Shown one piece after another: positions 3,779 through 54,732 of a stretch of 64,000 nt of DNA (positions are counted from its first letter, which is position 1; each line of letters begins with the position of its first letter). A program made the translations under genes and the position numbers. The stretch is from NCBI RefSeq assembly GCF_003627795.1, contig NZ_CP032684.1, positions 907,001-971,000 of the forward strand, in the 5' to 3' direction. This stretch comes from Rhizobium sp. CCGE531. GTDB taxonomy: Bacteria; Pseudomonadota; Alphaproteobacteria; Rhizobiales; Rhizobiaceae. Below the pieces are notes generated by a model, which saw only the letters and a list, made by a program, of their open reading frames with translations, searched no databases and was not told where the DNA came from.

Positions 3779-3887
3779 CCTGGAGCATTTCCGCTTTTCT
3801 TCGAATCGCGAAAACGCCCTATCTTCTTGTTTTGCTACGCATTCCGGACGGAAAACCGCTGCGCACTTTTCCTGGAATTGCTCTAAA
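3779..3887 (-). repeat. Dispersed rhizobial palindromic repeat, type A copy 1
   Basis: Read on the minus strand, the element starts TAGAGCAATTCCAGGAAAAG, continues through GCAGCGGTTTTCCGTCCGGAAT and ends in a GCG-TTTTCGCG type hairpin. Two related copies lie at 17590-17713 and 35203-35305. The first three bases serve as the stop codon of the adjacent antiporter gene. It resembles the RIME-like intergenic elements seen throughout Rhizobium genomes. Confidence 0.75.
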
Positions 3888-12027: not shown

Positions 12028-12135
12028 TACAGCGCCGCGCGTCAAATACGACGCGCAAAGGTCGCTGTAGCACTTCAAAGCTGCTGCATAATTTTGTCTT
12101 TAAATCGATTTCGGCTTAAGGACAAAATTATGCAG
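12028..12135. repeat. Dispersed rhizobial palindromic repeat, type B copy 1
   Basis: The left part TACAGCGCCGCGCGTC...GACGCGCAAAGG forms one hairpin. The right part is a perfect 15-bp inverted repeat (CTGCATAATTTTGTC / GACAAAATTATGCAG) that can fold in either strand. A second copy lies at 38511-38612. It separates the convergent ends of lpxK/DUF2093 and mutL and may also stop transcription, though no T-run follows the stem directly. Confidence 0.8.
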
Positions 12136-35195: not shown

Positions 35196-35202
35196 GACCT
35201 TG

Positions 35203-35305
35203 AGCAATTCCAGGAAAAGTGCACAGCGGTTTTCCATCAGGAATTGTGCGAAAACAAAGTGATAGAGCGGTTCAGAGATTCCGTGAAAAACTGAACCGCT
35301 TTAGA
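35203..35305. repeat. Dispersed rhizobial palindromic repeat, type A copy 3
   Basis: It begins GAGCAATTCCAGGAAAAGTG and continues with CAGCGGTTTTCCATCAGGAATT. It ends in a GCGGTTCAG...CTGAACCGC hairpin followed by TTTAGA, whose TTA is the reverse complement of the rnhB stop. The first half is nearly identical to the copy at 3779-3887. Confidence 0.8.
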
Positions 35306-38510: not shown

Positions 38511-38612
38511 TGACAGCGCCGCGCGTCTTTCAAGACGCGCCAAGGACGCTGCAACATTTGAAATGCTGCATAATTTTTCCCTTAAAGCGATTCCGATTCA
38601 AGGAATTATGCG
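38511..38612. repeat. Dispersed rhizobial palindromic repeat, type B copy 2
   Basis: TGACAGCGCCGCGCGTCTTT with its complement GACGCGCCAAGGACGCTG, then ATGCTGCATAATTTTTCCCT and TCAAGGAATTATGCG. It matches the copy at 12028-12135 with a shortened right arm. Its edge supplies the TAA stop of moaB. Confidence 0.8.
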
Positions 38613-49377: not shown

Positions 49378-51324
49378 ATGACACGGCTTTGCGGGTTCTT
49401 CCTGGCTCTGTGCCTGCTGCTATGCGCAACGGCGGTAACGGCCGCCGAACTCATCACCAACTTCGATCAGGCGTTTGACCTGCATCGTGACGGCTCCATG
49501 CGGGTCGTCGAGACGATCTCCGTGAATGCGGAAGGGCGTGATATCCGCCGCGGTATCTTCCGGGATTTTCCGCTGACAACGACCGATGCCAACGGCCGCG
49601 AGATCGAGGTGGATTTCAAGGTCGTGTCCGTCGAGCGCGACGGGCAGCCGGAGGATTGGCATAGCGAGCGCATCAAGGGCGGCGAGCGCATCTATATCGG
49701 CAAGGCCGATCGAAGCCTCAACTCAGGACCCCATACATTCCGCCTCACCTACGACACCAATCGTCAGATGCGCTATTTCGACGATCATGACGAGCTTTAT
49801 TGGAACGTGACAGGCAATGGCTGGCTGTTCCCGATCGTCAATGCCAAGGCGACCGTTACATTGCCCGATGGCGTCGGGCCTCAGCAGCTTGCTTTCTTCA
49901 CCGGGCCGCTCGGTGCTAATGGCAAGAACGCCAGCGCTAGCGCGCAGGGCAGCATCGTCACTTTTGTCACGACCAGGCCGCTCGCCATGGCCGAAGGCCT
50001 GACGATCGCCGTCAAGCTGGCGAAAGGGACGATCGCGCCGCCGAGCGCAAGCCAGCAATGGGGCTGGTTCCTGCGGGATCATCTCGACACGACTATTGCC
50101 ATCGGTGGGCTGATCCTGCTGTTTGCCTATTATATGCGCAGTTGGATTGCCGTCGGCCGCGATCCTGCGCCCGGTGTCATGGTTCCGCGCTGGGATCCGC
50201 CTGAAGGCATCTCGCCGGCGCTGGTCAATTATATCGACAATAAGGGTTTCGCCAGCTCCAGCTGGACGGCATTCTCGGCGACGGCGATCGATCTCGCCGT
50301 GCGCGGCTATGTCATCCTCGACGATCTCAAGGGAAAAGTGGTTGTCCGCCCCACAGGCAAGGCCGGCAGCGATCTGGGTGGCGGCGACAAGGTGCTGATG
50401 CAGGCTGTCGGACCATTCTCACCGCTTGTCATCGACAAGGAAAATGGCGAGGCGGTGCAGCGGCTCGGCTTGAAGTTCCGAAGCGCGATCGAGCACGACC
50501 ATCGCAATGAGTATTACAAGGCCAATGCGCTCTACGTCATTGCCGGCATAGCGCTCTCGATCCTCATCCTGGCGTCCATCGTCATCTTCGGTCGCCTGCA
50601 CGAGAATGCCCTGCCGCTCATCATCGTACCCGGCTTCCTGTCGATTTTCGTGACGCTCTTCGCCAGTTCTATCGGCCGCAGGTTTCGCAGTCGAAATGCC
50701 AGCCTCGCCCGGCGCGTCATTTCCGTCCTGGTCTTTGCCTTCTTCGGCTTCGTCTTCGTATCGACTGCTGTCAGCGGCCTTGCCGCCGCGGTCGTGCCGC
50801 TATGGGAGGCGGGCTTGCTGCCGCTGGTGGCCGGCATTGTCGGCATCTTCGCGCTGAACGTCGTCTTCTATTTCCTGATGGGCGCGCCGACGCCGCTCGG
50901 GCGAACGTTGATGGATGGCATCGCCGGGCTCCGGCAATATCTGACCTTGGCCGAACGCGACCGGATGAACATGCAGGGCGCGCCGCAGATGTCGCCGCAG
51001 CATTTCGAAAAGCTGCTGCCCTACGCGGTCGCGCTCGGCGTCGAAAAGCCCTGGTCCAGCGCTTTCGAAACCTGGCTCGCCACAGCAGCGGGAGCGACCG
51101 CGGCGGCCGCCTATGCGCCGGTCTGGTATTCCGGCAACTTCAACCCCGGCAATATCGGCGGAACCATCGGCGACTTTTCCTCCTCGATGGCCTCCACCAT
51201 CGCCTCGACCATTCCCGCACCCGTATCCAGCTCCTCCTCGGCCTTCGGCGATGGGGGAGGCGGTGGTGGTGGCGGCGGGTCCTCCGGCGGCGGCGGAGGC
51301 GGTGGAGGTGGTGGCGGATGGTGA
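49378..51324 (+). CDS. DUF2207 family membrane protein with Gly-rich end
   Basis: 648 residues. The ATG at 49378 follows GGGGGAG. A signal peptide ([20 protein letters not shown]) precedes a ~190-residue extracytoplasmic DUF2207 domain ([20 protein letters not shown]). One membrane helix lies near residue 240, a cytoplasmic winged-helix-like stretch follows, and several helices lie between 385 and 520. The last ~40 residues are Ser- then Gly-rich with uninterrupted Gly runs ending GGW. It is typically linked to LemA; the function is unknown. The last codons run straight into the left end of the DUF559 element. Confidence 0.85.
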
Positions 51325-51330
51325 ACAGAC

Positions 51331-51848
51331 ACCCTCCCCCTCAAGGGGGAGGTGTTGGTCTCGATGCATCAATTTCGCTGTCTCAACAACACGGAGATTC
51401 TGTGCCCAAAAACCCTTCCAAGCTCGACCGTTTCAAAATCGCCAACAGCCGGCGTCTGCGCGCTGGTTCGACCGATGCGGAAGCGAAGCTTTGGAAGCAC
51501 TTGTGGCGCATCCCGATCGAAGGGACGCATTTTCGCCGACAGGTTCCGATCGGGCGTTATTTCGCTGATTTCGCTTGTCATCAGATAGGTCTGATTATCG
51601 AGCTTGATGGCGGCCAGCACGCGGAAGAGACGGCGAGGCGTTACGATGCCGAGCGCACGGCCTTTCTTGAAAGCCAGGGTTACCATGTCGTCCGATTCTG
51701 GAATGCCGAGGTCATGGATGAGATCGAGGCTGTCCTGGATACGATATTTGCCATTGTGCAGCAGCGACAAATTTTGCTAGCAGAGGCCGACTGTTTTCAC
51801 CCCACTCCGGCACGCCGTGCCGACCCTCTCTCTCAAAGGGAGGGTGAG
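51331..51848 (+). mobile_element. DUF559 gene bracketed by palindromic ends (candidate mobile unit)
   Basis: The left end (51331-51353) is the palindrome ACCCTCCCCCTCAAGGGGGAGG. The right end (51796-51848) has TCACCCCACTCCGGCACGCC, then GTGCCGACCCTC and a CTCAAAGGGAGGGTG arm. Both ends recur around the 120-bp insertion in glyS at 52747-52866, which also shares GTCTCAACAA with this unit (51380-51389 and 52806-52815). The unit starts 6 bases after the DUF2207 stop and ends 10 bases before glyS. No transposase is present; the enclosed DUF559 nuclease is the only candidate mobility protein (inference). Confidence 0.6.
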
Positions 51849-51857
51849 GAACCTTGA
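51402..51857 (+). CDS. DUF559 endonuclease-like protein (Vsr-type fold)
   Basis: 151 residues from a GTG at 51402 ([20 protein letters not shown]); an in-frame ATG at 51318 would add residues encoded by the palindromic left end. The DUF559 core reads [36 protein letters not shown] and [10 protein letters not shown], with the Asp and the Glu-x-Asp of a PD-(D/E)xK nuclease, then [18 protein letters not shown]. The C-terminal [18 protein letters not shown] is encoded by the right end of the element. It lies one base before glyS. A nicking or homing role in spreading the element is plausible but unproven. Confidence 0.8.
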
Positions 51858-51858
51858 C

Positions 51859-54351
51859 ATGCCCGATCTCCTGCTCGAACTCCGCTCCGAGGAAATTCCC
51901 GCCCGTATGCAGCGCAAGGCTGCCGGTGATCTGAAGAAGCTGGTGACCGATGCGCTCATCGAAGCAGGCCTTTCCTATGAAGGTGCCAGGGAATATTGGA
52001 CGCCGCGGAGGCTGACGCTGGATATTCGCGGCCTGACGGCGCGCTCGGCCGATGTGCGCGAGGAGCGCAAGGGACCGCGCACCGACGCCAATGAGAAGGC
52101 GATCGAAGGCTTCCTGCGTGGCGCCGGCCTCTCCTCCATTTCCGAAGCACAGGTGAGTAGCGACCCGAAGAAGGGCGATTTCTACGTTGCGGTCATTTCC
52201 AAGCCCGGCCGTGCCGCCGAGGAAATCGTCGCCGCCGTGATGCCCGATATCGTCAGAAATTTCCCCTGGCCGAAATCCATGCGCTGGGGCAAGGCATCGG
52301 CCAAGCCCGGCTCGCTGCGTTGGGTGCGCCCGCTGCAGTCGATCGTCTGCGTCTATGGCACCGAGCATGAAGAAACCACGGTCATCCCCTTCGAGATCGA
52401 CGGCATCGTCGCCTCGAATGTCACCTACGGCCATCGCTTCCATGCGCCTGACGCGATCACGGTTAAGCGTTTCGAGGACTATGTCGCGAGCCTGGAAAAG
52501 GCCTATGTCGTCCTGGATGCCGAGCGCCGTAAGGACATCATCCTACACGACGCCCGTGATGTCGCCTTTGCCAACGGCCTGGAACTGGTCGAGGACGAAG
52601 GCCTGCTGGAAGAAGTATCCGGCCTCGTCGAGTGGCCGCAGGTGCTGATGGGCTCCTTCGAGGAAGACTATCTGTCGATCCCGTCTGAGATCATCCGTCT
52701 GACCATCAAGACCAATCAGAAGTGTTTCGTCACCCGCCCGCAAGGTTCCCACCTCCCCCTTGAGGGGGGAGGTCGCAGCGAAGCTGCGGGTGGGGGTGAT
52801 CTCTCGTCTCAACAAAATCACCCCACCCCGGCACTGCGTGCCGACCCTCCCCCTCAAGGGGAGGGTGCTTTGTCCAACCGCTTCATTCTCATCGCCAATA
52901 TCCAGGCGACAGATGGCGGCAAGGAAATCATCCACGGCAACGGCAAGGTCGTGCGTGCCCGCCTGTCCGACGCGCTGCACTTCTGGAAGCGTGACCAGGG
53001 CGATCTGCCCGATCTTGAAACGCTGGAAGCCGCCGCCGCCAAGTTCGGTCTCGACCTGAAGAAGCCGCTCGATCAGCGCATGGCCAAACTCGATGCGCTT
53101 GGTGTTACTTTCCATGCCAAGCTCGGCAGCCAGGGCGAGCGTGTCGCCCGCATCCGGGCGCTGGCCGCCGACCTCGCCAAGATCACCGGCGCCGATGCCG
53201 CCCTGGTCAACCGCGCCGTCGTGCTCGCCAAGGCTGACCTGCGCACCGAAGCCGTTGGTGAATTCCCCGAGCTGCAGGGCCTCATGGGCCGGAAATATGC
53301 CTCGCTGCAGGGTGAGAATGCCTCAGTGGCAACCGCGATCGAAGATCACTACAAGCCGCAGGGTCCCTCCGACCGCGTTCCCGAGGACAAGGTGGCGATA
53401 ACAGTAGCACTCGCCGACAAGCTGGATACGCTCGTCGGCTTCTGGGCGATCGACGAAAAGCCGACTGGCTCTAAGGACCCTTATGCGCTGCGCCGTGCGG
53501 CTTTAGGCGTTGTTAGGATTCTGCTCGAACGAGGCGTGCGGGCAGATCTTCTCAAAGTCATGAATTGCGCTGTCAGAATTTATGCGATGGCACAGATGGA
53601 GAAAATAAGACAAATTCATCAGTTCCAAGGAAACCCCTCCGAACAGCGCGAGTTTCTGGACCATCATCGAATTCCGTATATGCGTGCCTTTAACGCCTCG
53701 ACTGGCATCACCTCAGGCGTTACGGGACACCCCTCGTATTTCAATTTCGTTTGGTTTAGCGCAGACTTATTTAGGGAGATGGCTGATCTTTTTCCGATTT
53801 GGCAGCACGAGTATTCACCGTTAAGCGGGGAGAGCGACCTCCTTGCCTTCTTCCACGATCGTCTCAAGGTCTACCTGCGCGATCTCGGCGCTCGCCATGA
53901 TCTCATCGACGCCGTGCTGACGCCGGAGACGGACGATCTGCTGATGATCGCCCGCCGCGTCGAGGCGCTGACCGCCTTCATCACGTCGGAGGACGGCAAG
54001 AACCTGCTCGCTGGCACCAAGCGCGCCACGCAGCTTCTGGCCGCCGAAGAGAAGAAGGGCACCGTCGTTGCCGATAGCGTTTCGGAAGCCTTGCTGAAGC
54101 TCGATGCGGAAAAGGATCTCTTTGCCGCCGTCAAGGCAGCCTCCGCCGAGGCCTCCGATGCGATCGCCAAGGAAGACTTCCGTTCGGCCATGTCAGCCCT
54201 TTCCAAGCTGCGTGCGCCCGTCGACCGTTTCTTTGAAGACGTACTCGTCAATGACGAGGATGCCGCCATCCGCGCCAATCGCCTGGCACTGCTGCACCTG
54301 ATCCGCGAAGCGACCGGCACGGTCGCCGACTTCTCGAAGATCGCGGGCTGA
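51859..54351 (+). CDS. glyS: Glycyl-tRNA synthetase beta subunit with two in-frame insertions
   Basis: 830 residues, over 100 longer than the usual ~690-710. The N-terminal [28 protein letters not shown] and HRFHAPDAI, and the C-terminal [20 protein letters not shown] identify the beta subunit, which binds tRNA-Gly and carries an HD-like domain. Residues 297-336 are an inserted palindromic element after PQG; the normal sequence resumes with [12 protein letters not shown]. Residues ~566-659 contain ~70 extra residues of unusual composition before [14 protein letters not shown]. Both keep the frame, so a full-length product is expected. The insertions may be surface loops (inference). Confidence 0.93.
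52747..52866 (+). mobile_element. 120-bp palindromic element inserted in frame in glyS
   Basis: Exactly 40 codons (residues 297-336). The left arm CACCTCCCCCTTGAGGGGGG is followed by a GCAGCGAAGCTGC hairpin. The middle holds GTCTCAACAA. The right arm TCACCCCACCCCGGCACTGC...GACCCTCCCCCTCAAGGGGA closes it. The right ~50 bases match the right end of the DUF559 unit (51799-51848) at about 44 positions. The peptide [16 protein letters not shown] mirrors the DUF559 C-terminus. It looks like an internally deleted, non-autonomous derivative. GGT occurs on both borders and may be a short target duplication. Confidence 0.8.
53554..53835 (+). other. Compositionally foreign in-frame segment within glyS
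   Basis: This stretch uses codons rare in the window (ATA, AGA, TTA, CAA, ATT) and has visibly lower GC than the flanks; the change begins near 53500. It encodes about 70 residues ([44 protein letters not shown]) with no counterpart in standard GlyS between the [11 protein letters not shown] and [10 protein letters not shown] segments. No domain was recognised. A divergent allele acquired by recombination or a degenerate inserted element are both possible. Confidence 0.65.
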
Positions 54352-54372
54352 GCTGGTACTTGAAGTCTTTTG

Positions 54373-54412
54373 TGCTTGTTAATGGTAGCGTATATGTTAC
54401 CATTAACAAGCA
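54373..54412. promoter_or_regulatory. Palindromic operator/promoter of the HigBA-type module
   Basis: A perfect 15-bp inverted repeat TGCTTGTTAATGGTA / TACCATTAACAAGCA (54373-54387, 54398-54412) has a 10-base spacer. Its last base is the A of the toxin ATG. A weak promoter TTGTGC-N17-TATGTT (54370-54375, 54393-54398) lies inside it and would start transcription only ~6 bases before the ATG. The toxin-antitoxin complex most likely binds here. Confidence 0.75.
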
Positions 54413-54732
54413 TGGAACTTATCGAGTATACCGATCGGCAGGGGAAAAGCCCCTTTGCGCCGTGGTTCGCCACAATTGATACCAGAGCAGCTTTGAAGGT
54501 GCGCACCGCTGTCGGACGGATTGCGCACGGCCATACGTCGAACGTCAAAAGCGTTGGTGGCGGTGTGATGGAGTATCGCCTGGACTATGGACCGGGCTAT
54601 CGCATCTATTTCGCTCGTCGCGGCGATAAGCTCATAATCTTGTTAGCCGGCGGAACAAAAAAGCGGCAGCAAGCGGATATTGAGGCCGCACAAGAACGTT
54701 GGCTGGACTACAAACAAAGGAAGGGAGACTGA
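54412..54732 (+). CDS. RelE/HigB-superfamily toxin (addiction module killer protein type)
   Basis: 106 residues from the ATG at 54412 at the edge of the operator; upstream in-frame starts lie inside the palindrome. FAPWFATIDTRAALKVRTAV and HTSNVKSVGGGVMEYRLDYG with GPGYRIYFARRGDKLIILL match the phage-derived Gp49-like/HigB toxin group, which cleaves ribosome-bound mRNA. The toxin gene precedes the antitoxin, the reverse of the parDE order and typical of higBA. It appears intact. Confidence 0.85.
   Translation: MELIEYTDRQGKSPFAPWFATIDTRAALKVRTAVGRIAHGHTSNVKSVGGGVMEYRLDYGPGYRIYFARRGDKLIILLAGGTKKRQQADIEAAQERWLDYKQRKGD

Follow-up and report, generated by a model that had tools for sequence, protein, structure and literature searches.

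DUF559 nuclease genes and BoxC-like palindromic repeats: an association seen from the glyS locus of Rhizobium sp. CCGE531

The glyS locus of Rhizobium sp. CCGE531 carries a gene for a nuclease of the DUF559 family (PF04480) and, beside it and inside glyS itself, copies of a C-rich palindromic repeat. The locus lies in the window analysed here, a stretch of 64,000 nucleotides at positions 907,001 to 971,000 of contig NZ_CP032684.1 (G000:C1:907001-971000; the whole genome, G000, is 7.14 Mb). The link between DUF559 genes and palindromes of this kind is well supported. We put at about two in three the probability that a family of BoxC-like palindromic elements has DUF559 as its cognate nuclease, by which, we infer, these elements would be cut and moved along a homing-like route. 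An earlier note on this DNA had proposed a DUF559 nuclease tied to palindromes resembling miniature inverted-repeat transposable elements, in a layout like that of REP/RAYT pairs; the association held, while the derivation that it gave for the insert in glyS did not.

Hairpins are concentrated around DUF559 genes. The sample from named genomes consisted of the best 80 of 574 DUF559 relatives, and other positions within the same loci served as controls. Hairpins with a stem of at least 9 numbered 3.63 per kb up to 250 bp from the DUF559 domain, 0.37 per kb between 250 and 500 bp, and 0.12-0.20 per kb beyond that, out to 10 kb. A C-rich hairpin was present within 300 bp at 68 of the 80 loci (on both sides at 46); of 124 control sites at a distance of 5 kb, 4 had one. 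These values come from a recount with a filter for C-rich stems; the unfiltered count also gave 68 loci, some of them with non-C-rich hairpins or poly-G/poly-C runs. New loci from a search of the phylum had a C-rich hairpin in 29 of 29 cases; at a distance of 600-1200 bp, 4 of 57 sites did. One-sided purine tracts accompanied 79 of 153 palindromes near DUF559 and 6 of 275 control positions, and tracts on both sides were seen in 6. The loci with hairpins include metagenome-assembled records titled Chloroflexi, Nitrospirae and Candidatus Kuenenia. Among plasmid-collection records, 41 had a DUF559 match, and C-rich hairpins were located near the gene in all four that were inspected, one of them from Neisseria gonorrhoeae. 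DUF559 relatives were observed on viral contigs as well (L215-L294, 80 of 89 relatives).

The number of palindromes in a genome also follows the presence of DUF559. The pattern TCTCCC..GGGAGA was counted across the phylum, and a DUF559 match was termed strong when its best E was below 1e-12. Among 398 genomes, the 110 with a strong match had a median of 30.5 palindromes and the 253 with none a median of 1 (p 8e-38), while the 35 genomes with a weak match behaved like the DUF559-negative ones (median 1). Sixteen families contained both kinds of genome; within them 818.5 of 971 comparisons favoured the DUF559 genomes, a value reached in none of 5000 within-family permutations, and the median was higher with DUF559 in 13 of the 16. 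Families f15 and f24 had no negatives and so fell outside this test. In the family of the window (101 genomes), 50 of the 61 DUF559-bearing genomes and 5 of the 40 others had at least 10 copies, three palindrome types being taken together and G042 (E 3.4e-4) being counted as negative. Repeats reach hundreds of copies in some genomes. Enrichment in the flanks and a copy number that tracks DUF559 were both named as tests in the earlier note, and both were found, the latter also within families; palindromes were neither equally common without DUF559 nor usually lacking from its flanks, as a coincidental link would imply.

Different versions of the nuclease are accompanied by different versions of the repeat. 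Flanks were read at 91 loci, the better-scoring of 145 DUF559 matches in the window's family, and each locus was labelled with whichever of four palindrome types lay closest, up to 300 bp away, which was possible for 79. On the DUF559 tree of these 79 loci, built from short proteins and with 44 of 88 inner branches unresolved, the subtype changed 13 times; shuffled labels gave a mean of 39.8, with 0 of 200 as low. When labels were shuffled only inside genomes (21 genomes, 49 loci) the mean was 31.7 and the lowest value 19, and none of 2000 shuffles reached 13. Genome-wide copy number rises with the presence of the repeat's own DUF559 clade for ATCTCCC (p 0.0014) and for TTCTCCC (p 0.0003 and 0.017). 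The two DUF559 genes of G000 are 43% identical over the domain, one lying beside CCTCCCC and the other beside ATCTCC palindromes. Each DUF559 version thus stands mostly with its own repeat version, suggesting that the repeats owe their spread to the enzyme. The second DUF559 gene of G000 (L001, G000:C1:1313445-1313762) has palindromes of the other subtype (ATCTCCCCC) with inner hairpins of type TGTCACTTTCGTGACA.

At the window locus the order is DUF2207 gene, C-rich palindrome, DUF559, repeat end and glyS. The features, numbered as in the window, are:

51331..51354, strand not assigned: C-rich palindrome ACCCTCCCCCTCAAGGGGGAGGTG, upstream of the DUF559 gene
51402..51857, + strand: gene for a DUF559 (PF04480) Vsr/EDxHD-like PD-(D/E)XK nuclease, GTG start, active-site columns conserved
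51754..51792, + strand: segment resembling the glyS leader of the genus, now within the 3' part of the DUF559 open reading frame
51797..51847, + strand: solo repeat end, composed of a pyrimidine head, an inner hairpin and a C-rich palindrome; it overlaps the 3' end of DUF559 and immediately precedes the glyS start codon
51859..54351, + strand: glyS, glycyl-tRNA synthetase beta subunit, carrier of the in-frame insert
52750..52800, + strand: left end of the doublet in glyS, with a hairpin, a variable inner hairpin and the purine-rich tract GGGTGGGGGTGA
52801..52816, + strand: variable spacer of the glyS doublet
52817..52867, + strand: right end of the doublet in glyS, with TCACCCCACCCC, a variable inner hairpin and the palindrome ACCCTCCCCCTCAAGGGGAGGGT

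The C-rich palindrome and the DUF559 gene, both predicted before, were confirmed, the open reading frame scoring 129 bits with PF04480. Its nearest relative among the matches listed from named genomes (best 80 of 574) was a Rhizobium record with 73% identity. A search of Rfam with positions 50000-54500 gave nothing at gathering scores, and only weak partial matches were obtained from PADLOC (4) and PHROGs (4). DUF559 was seen between the DUF2207 gene and glyS in G102, G106, G110 and G113; none was found there in G104 and G117. Ahead of DUF559, on the side of the upstream palindrome, G102, G110 and G113 carry a complete doublet, about 126-130 bp long.

The segment 51754-51792, which encodes part of the DUF559 C-terminus, is alike to the glyS leader at 34-39 of 39 positions in 11 same-genus genomes lacking a blastn match to DUF559 there, and at 29-30 of 39 in five genomes with DUF559 at the site. 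Because this leader-like segment precedes it, the repeat end at 51797-51847 looks like a separate copy beside the glyS start instead of the natural end of the DUF559 unit. The stretch 51331-51848, taken in the earlier note for one intact autonomous unit with a right end of about 50 bp of its own, contains a piece of leader and was rejected as such a unit.

The insert in glyS is a 120-bp in-frame doublet (about 52748-52868) of the same repeat as the end at 51797-51847. It is an imperfect inverted pair of 51 nt (52750-52800 and 52817-52867), 75% complementary and 16 nt apart. The comparison of 51797-51846 with 52818-52867 confirmed the reported likeness of 44 in 50 positions (88%), and the DUF559 3' end and the insert are read in the same frame and therefore have a peptide in common. 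The length of exactly 40 codons had to be corrected: relatives typically have TRPQ-AGET-LSNRF and G000 has TRPQ-(42 residues)-LSNRF, four residues (AGET or similar) being replaced, so that the net gain is 114 bp or 38 codons. The site is empty in each of the 17 same-genus relatives in which it was readable. The glyS copy, folded as single-stranded DNA, reaches a z of -6.7 (0 of 200 shuffles as good), and the insert sequence has 22 matches in G000, 8 in G102 and 16 in G110, where a copy may count on both strands; based on the fold and the multiple genomic matches, the repeat is not a product of chance. A second length-variable stretch of glyS was noted at about 53540-53827 of the window (residues about 566-653), where matches to relatives break and the length in G000 differs from that in G102.

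Alignment of 21 doublets from G000 and relatives revealed two distinct conserved ends and an unconserved spacer. Each end is made up of a 9-bp C-rich hairpin, followed by a second hairpin and then by a tract (GGGTGGGGGTGA left, TCACCCCACCCC right), and the two tracts of a doublet are able to pair with each other. The inner hairpins vary in sequence and mostly remain self-complementary (alignment A3, columns 27-41 and 112-126). Two-sided changes across the structure amounted to 27 cells against 8.3 in shuffles, all within the two inner hairpins, and the covariation of 0.085 exceeded that of shuffles (0.026) and of slid controls (0.008-0.025); two weaker covariation measures were reached by 27 of 500 shuffles. 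The word GTCTCAACAA, previously regarded as an internal feature of the repeat, was found in none of 40 other loci around repeat copies, some of them overlapping; only L105, which spans both places of the window, has it. Since the spacers are unrelated between copies and GTCTCAACAA is not common to them, an origin of the glyS insert by deletion from this DUF559 unit was rejected.

What appears from its sequence to be the clearest pairing of autonomous and non-autonomous forms, better than that of the window, was found in G495. In this genome 34 of 39 palindromes are in inverted pairs, 16 of these pairs being 103-169 bp apart, and one pair 504 bp apart encloses a DUF559 gene and shares its ends with some of the short pairs. 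Occupied and empty sites could be compared in G000 beyond glyS: palindromic inserts are located at three further sites in 400 kb of the genome, missing from G102 or G110, and at a fourth further site the relative retains one palindrome.

The active-site columns of the enzyme are conserved. A T-x-x-E helix and the motif D...E-x-D-G-x-(Q)-H were kept in 24 rows, with E18, D47, E58, D60 and H64 in 24 of 24. An alignment of 54 rows had eleven invariant columns, including E27, E67 and H73, with D56 and D69 at 90% or more. The AlphaFold2 model of DUF559, with a mean predicted local distance difference test score (pLDDT) of 83, matched the solved structures 3hrl, then I-Bth0305I (3r3p), PvuRts1I and, more weakly, Vsr. 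Of these, 3hrl is a putative endonuclease-like protein whose sequence, too, relates it to DUF559 (E 2e-37). I-Bth0305I, a homing endonuclease, is likewise found by sequence, as the second-best match of the DUF559 profile (E 6.5e-4).

BoxC repeats have been known in Escherichia coli (E. coli) since the 1990s. The BoxC/PIT/TM motif of this species is, judged from the letters, probably the same kind of repeat as that of the window: a purine tract comes after a C-rich hairpin (CCCTCNCCC..GGGNGAGGG), and there are many copies, some of them in inverted pairs (PMC4666352). The glyS copy fits a wide BoxC-like definition, that is, a C-rich palindrome with a purine tract on one side. The copies of the window differ in their CCTCCCC stems and in a second hairpin between stem and purine tract, and no match to the TM_ECO stem or to the full pattern CCCTCNCCCN3-6GGGNGAGGGN3GGGNGAGGG was found in the window. 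Within 300 bp of DUF559 the TM_ECO stem occurred in 26 of 80 loci and the full pattern in 12, the stem being present at 2 of 124 control sites. The motif CCCTCTCCCXX(X)GGGAGAGGG has been reported in 100 copies from Enterobacter sp. 638 (PMC2869309).

Holder and colleagues described 23 BoxC/PIT/TM_ECO copies in E. coli K-12 with no mobility functions near the sites, and no mention of DUF559 or a nuclease was found in the accessible parts of their paper (PMC4666352). Number 9 of these copies (1351204-1351239) is flanked by fabI and ycjD, and ycjD (1351407-1351760) is the DUF559 gene of K-12, whose product was earlier assigned to the PD-(D/E)XK superfamily with Vsr as its nearest member (PMC1189080). 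By reading, the stop codon of ycjD falls within a second, decayed BoxC, the counterpart of which in strain 2021CK-01784 fits the full pattern. A stretch like the ycjD 3' end (GGTTCAGACCTTGCCGAATATTCTCCAGCACC...) was also noticed by eye between BoxC and ycjD in K-12 (L454, 2541-2920), as if an older DUF559 unit had decayed there.

Based on 59 chromosome rows out of 60, one plasmid row having been dropped, the 37 rows with ycjD had 14-32 BoxC-like places (median 21) and the 22 rows without it 3-22 (median 12), the query locus being included in the counts; we regard this as support for the link, not as proof. According to Holder and colleagues there are 29 copies in strain 55989 and 1 in IHE3034 (PMC4666352). 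The ycjD gene is present in 55989, and in IHE3034 an efflux operon, the eef operon (PMC12817139), stands in its place between fabI and sapF. Strains lacking ycjD were considered as clean empty sites and rejected, the efflux operon being located between fabI and sapF, or adjoining fabI, in the three inspected at this locus, SMS-3-5, R8 and IHE3034. As the operon replaces ycjD, the locus represents an allele swap.

The following course of events is proposed. An element end would be made up of a C-rich hairpin, an inner second hairpin of variable sequence and a purine/pyrimidine tract, and two inverted ends would either form a short REPIN-like doublet or enclose a DUF559 gene. The nuclease would recognise the hairpin end that belongs to it, whether as a duplex, a single strand, a cruciform or a triplex, and may cut there or at the target, whereupon repair would copy the element into the break. 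Insertion by such break-and-copy repair would consequently lack a clear target duplication, and a little target sequence would be lost or filler gained. At the window locus, the DUF559 gene would have inserted ahead of the glyS leader, and a doublet belonging to its repeat family would have entered glyS in frame, to be carried there as a 42-residue loop. The odds are, in our view, even that this represents a new class of mobile element, in which a lone Vsr/EDxHD-like nuclease spreads its own hairpin/triplex repeat by transposase-free break and copy, with the BoxC/PIT/TM repeats as non-autonomous copies and ycjD as the matching nuclease, over a range from Alphaproteobacteria to Chloroflexi and Candidatus Kuenenia records.

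Several observations weigh against DUF559 as a cognate nuclease that spreads these repeats. No C-rich hairpin was found in 12 of the 80 loci, and the 12 of 91 loci with no typed palindrome were left out of the tree test. Genome-wide copies of the window's own subtype, CCTCCCC, were no more numerous where its DUF559 clade is present (5 genomes, p 0.65). Eleven of the 398 genomes hold at least 20 palindromes with no strong DUF559 match, and 5 of the 40 DUF559-less genomes in the window's family have at least 10 copies; a profile search of these 15 distinct high-copy genomes produced a clear DUF559 relic in G425 only. Conversely, 18 of the 110 genomes with a strong match have fewer than 5 copies of the pattern, one of which, G140, has CCCCTCTTT stems that are invisible to it. 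At ycjD both BoxC copies are on the 3' side of the gene; 12 of the 22 ycjD-negative rows keep 11-22 places, and the E. coli rows are phylogenetically related, not independent. Finally, the ends are not sharp, the junctions showing some filler or target loss, and the target duplications that had been looked for were not clear at any of the five sites read, one of which has GATG on both sides. Untidy junctions of this sort would seem to fit break repair better than a classical transposase. The genome with the relic, G425 (L459), has 176 palindromes and no intact DUF559, and the 3' end of its DUF559 fragment enters a BoxC-like sequence.

In another explanation, DUF559 would be a host nuclease of repair or surveillance, similar to Vsr, which processes repeats spread by other means and is kept nearby to limit damage. 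Vsr is indeed among the fold relatives of DUF559, the Caulobacter DUF559 protein VsrA is required for the SOS response that occurs when a cytosine methyltransferase is missing (PMC12907096), and triplex motifs have been tied to local instability in E. coli (PMC4666352). A housekeeping nuclease, however, need not lie within or adjoin a repeat, nor switch the repeat subtype with its own clade inside one genome; DUF559 is missing from 39 of the 101 genomes of the window's family, and at several loci its 3' end runs into the repeat. We consider this explanation unlikely; a second mobilising enzyme, such as RAYT, may exist in these genomes.

It is quite improbable that the nuclease gene alone is mobile and homes into existing palindromes, which would have spread independently by recombination or been retained as terminators. 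Such homing would agree with a homing endonuclease as second-best solved relative and with the many DUF559 genes that adjoin two palindromes on one side, rather than lying between two ends. Mere landing sites would, however, be expected to be equally common without DUF559, whereas copy number follows DUF559 within families, and the doublets and the DUF559 unit of G495 have common ends. Coincidence at hot spots, with small nuclease genes and C-rich repeats gathering in the same intergenic regions and no functional link between them, is given very little credence: G000 does have several further families of short repeats that are polymorphic between the same relatives, but the density of hairpins drops tenfold beyond 250 bp of DUF559 and about twentyfold beyond 500 bp, and subtype matching within genomes is unexpected from hot spots.

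Other short repeats were encountered in and around the window. Two copies of one of them (ACAGCGCCGCGCGTC...) are located at 12029-12122 and 38513-38604, and both are inserts of G000 missing from G110, so that a second mobile short-repeat family is present. Positions 3841-3883 and 35202-35244 form an inverted pair of a repeat with GAGCAATTCCAGGAAAAGTG; the copy at 35202-35244 sits within an insert missing from G110, and similar sequences were seen at other presence/absence sites. Inserts of about 860 bp with the inverted ends CCTCGTGGTTCGAG and CTCGAACCACGAGG were identified at G000:C1:992854-993710 and G110:C1:89971-90835, each being missing from the corresponding place of G102.

If DUF559 is the cognate nuclease of these elements, as we favour, BoxC-type repeats, which are high in copy number and tied to genome instability (PMC4666352), would have an engine that can be tested. 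DUF559, still a domain of unknown function in Pfam, would acquire a biological role, and REP/RAYT would have a nuclease-driven counterpart, with ycjD and BoxC of E. coli K-12 as a ready model. Such repeats can sit inside an essential gene, here glyS.

In RAYT systems, enzyme and repeat are cognate pairs. The system described here resembles REP/REPIN-RAYT (REPtron) in its short palindromes, inverted doublets, single linked small gene and in-gene copies (PMC3733652), and inverted palindrome doublets scattered through the genome are found here too. It differs in that the linked gene belongs to PF04480 with a PD-(D/E)XK fold and is not a Y1 HUH tyrosine transposase, and the GTAG tag that marks the hairpin foot in REP/RAYT was not found, as GTAG or CTAC, in the three window copies with short flanks. 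The CGTC-tagged REPs, apparently without a dedicated transposase, are likewise hairpins mostly of Alphaproteobacteria and mostly inverted dimers (PMC3733652); their stems nearly always start with AT, and a CGTC tag is present (PMC3733652), whereas the window copies start otherwise. The CGTC-tagged REPs were rejected as the family of the window repeat. A link between DUF559 and palindromes, including Vsr, REP, RIME, ycjD/BoxC and the CCCTCTCCC motif, was not reported in the open papers searched, most subscription journals and all preprints lying outside this set; among the open papers naming DUF559, judged by title and the start of the abstract, none was on interspersed palindromic repeats other than CRISPR. 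We also know of no DUF559 link for the Rickettsia palindromic elements (RPE). These are similar, by description only, in that a palindromic repeat lies in frame within a protein gene (PMC3733652). The EDxHD homing endonucleases and Vsr are the likeness on the side of the enzyme, 3r3p being second-best for both profile and model and Vsr among the next; I-Bth0305I is a long multidomain enzyme (PMC3943268), whereas the DUF559 proteins considered here are small single domains beside repeats.

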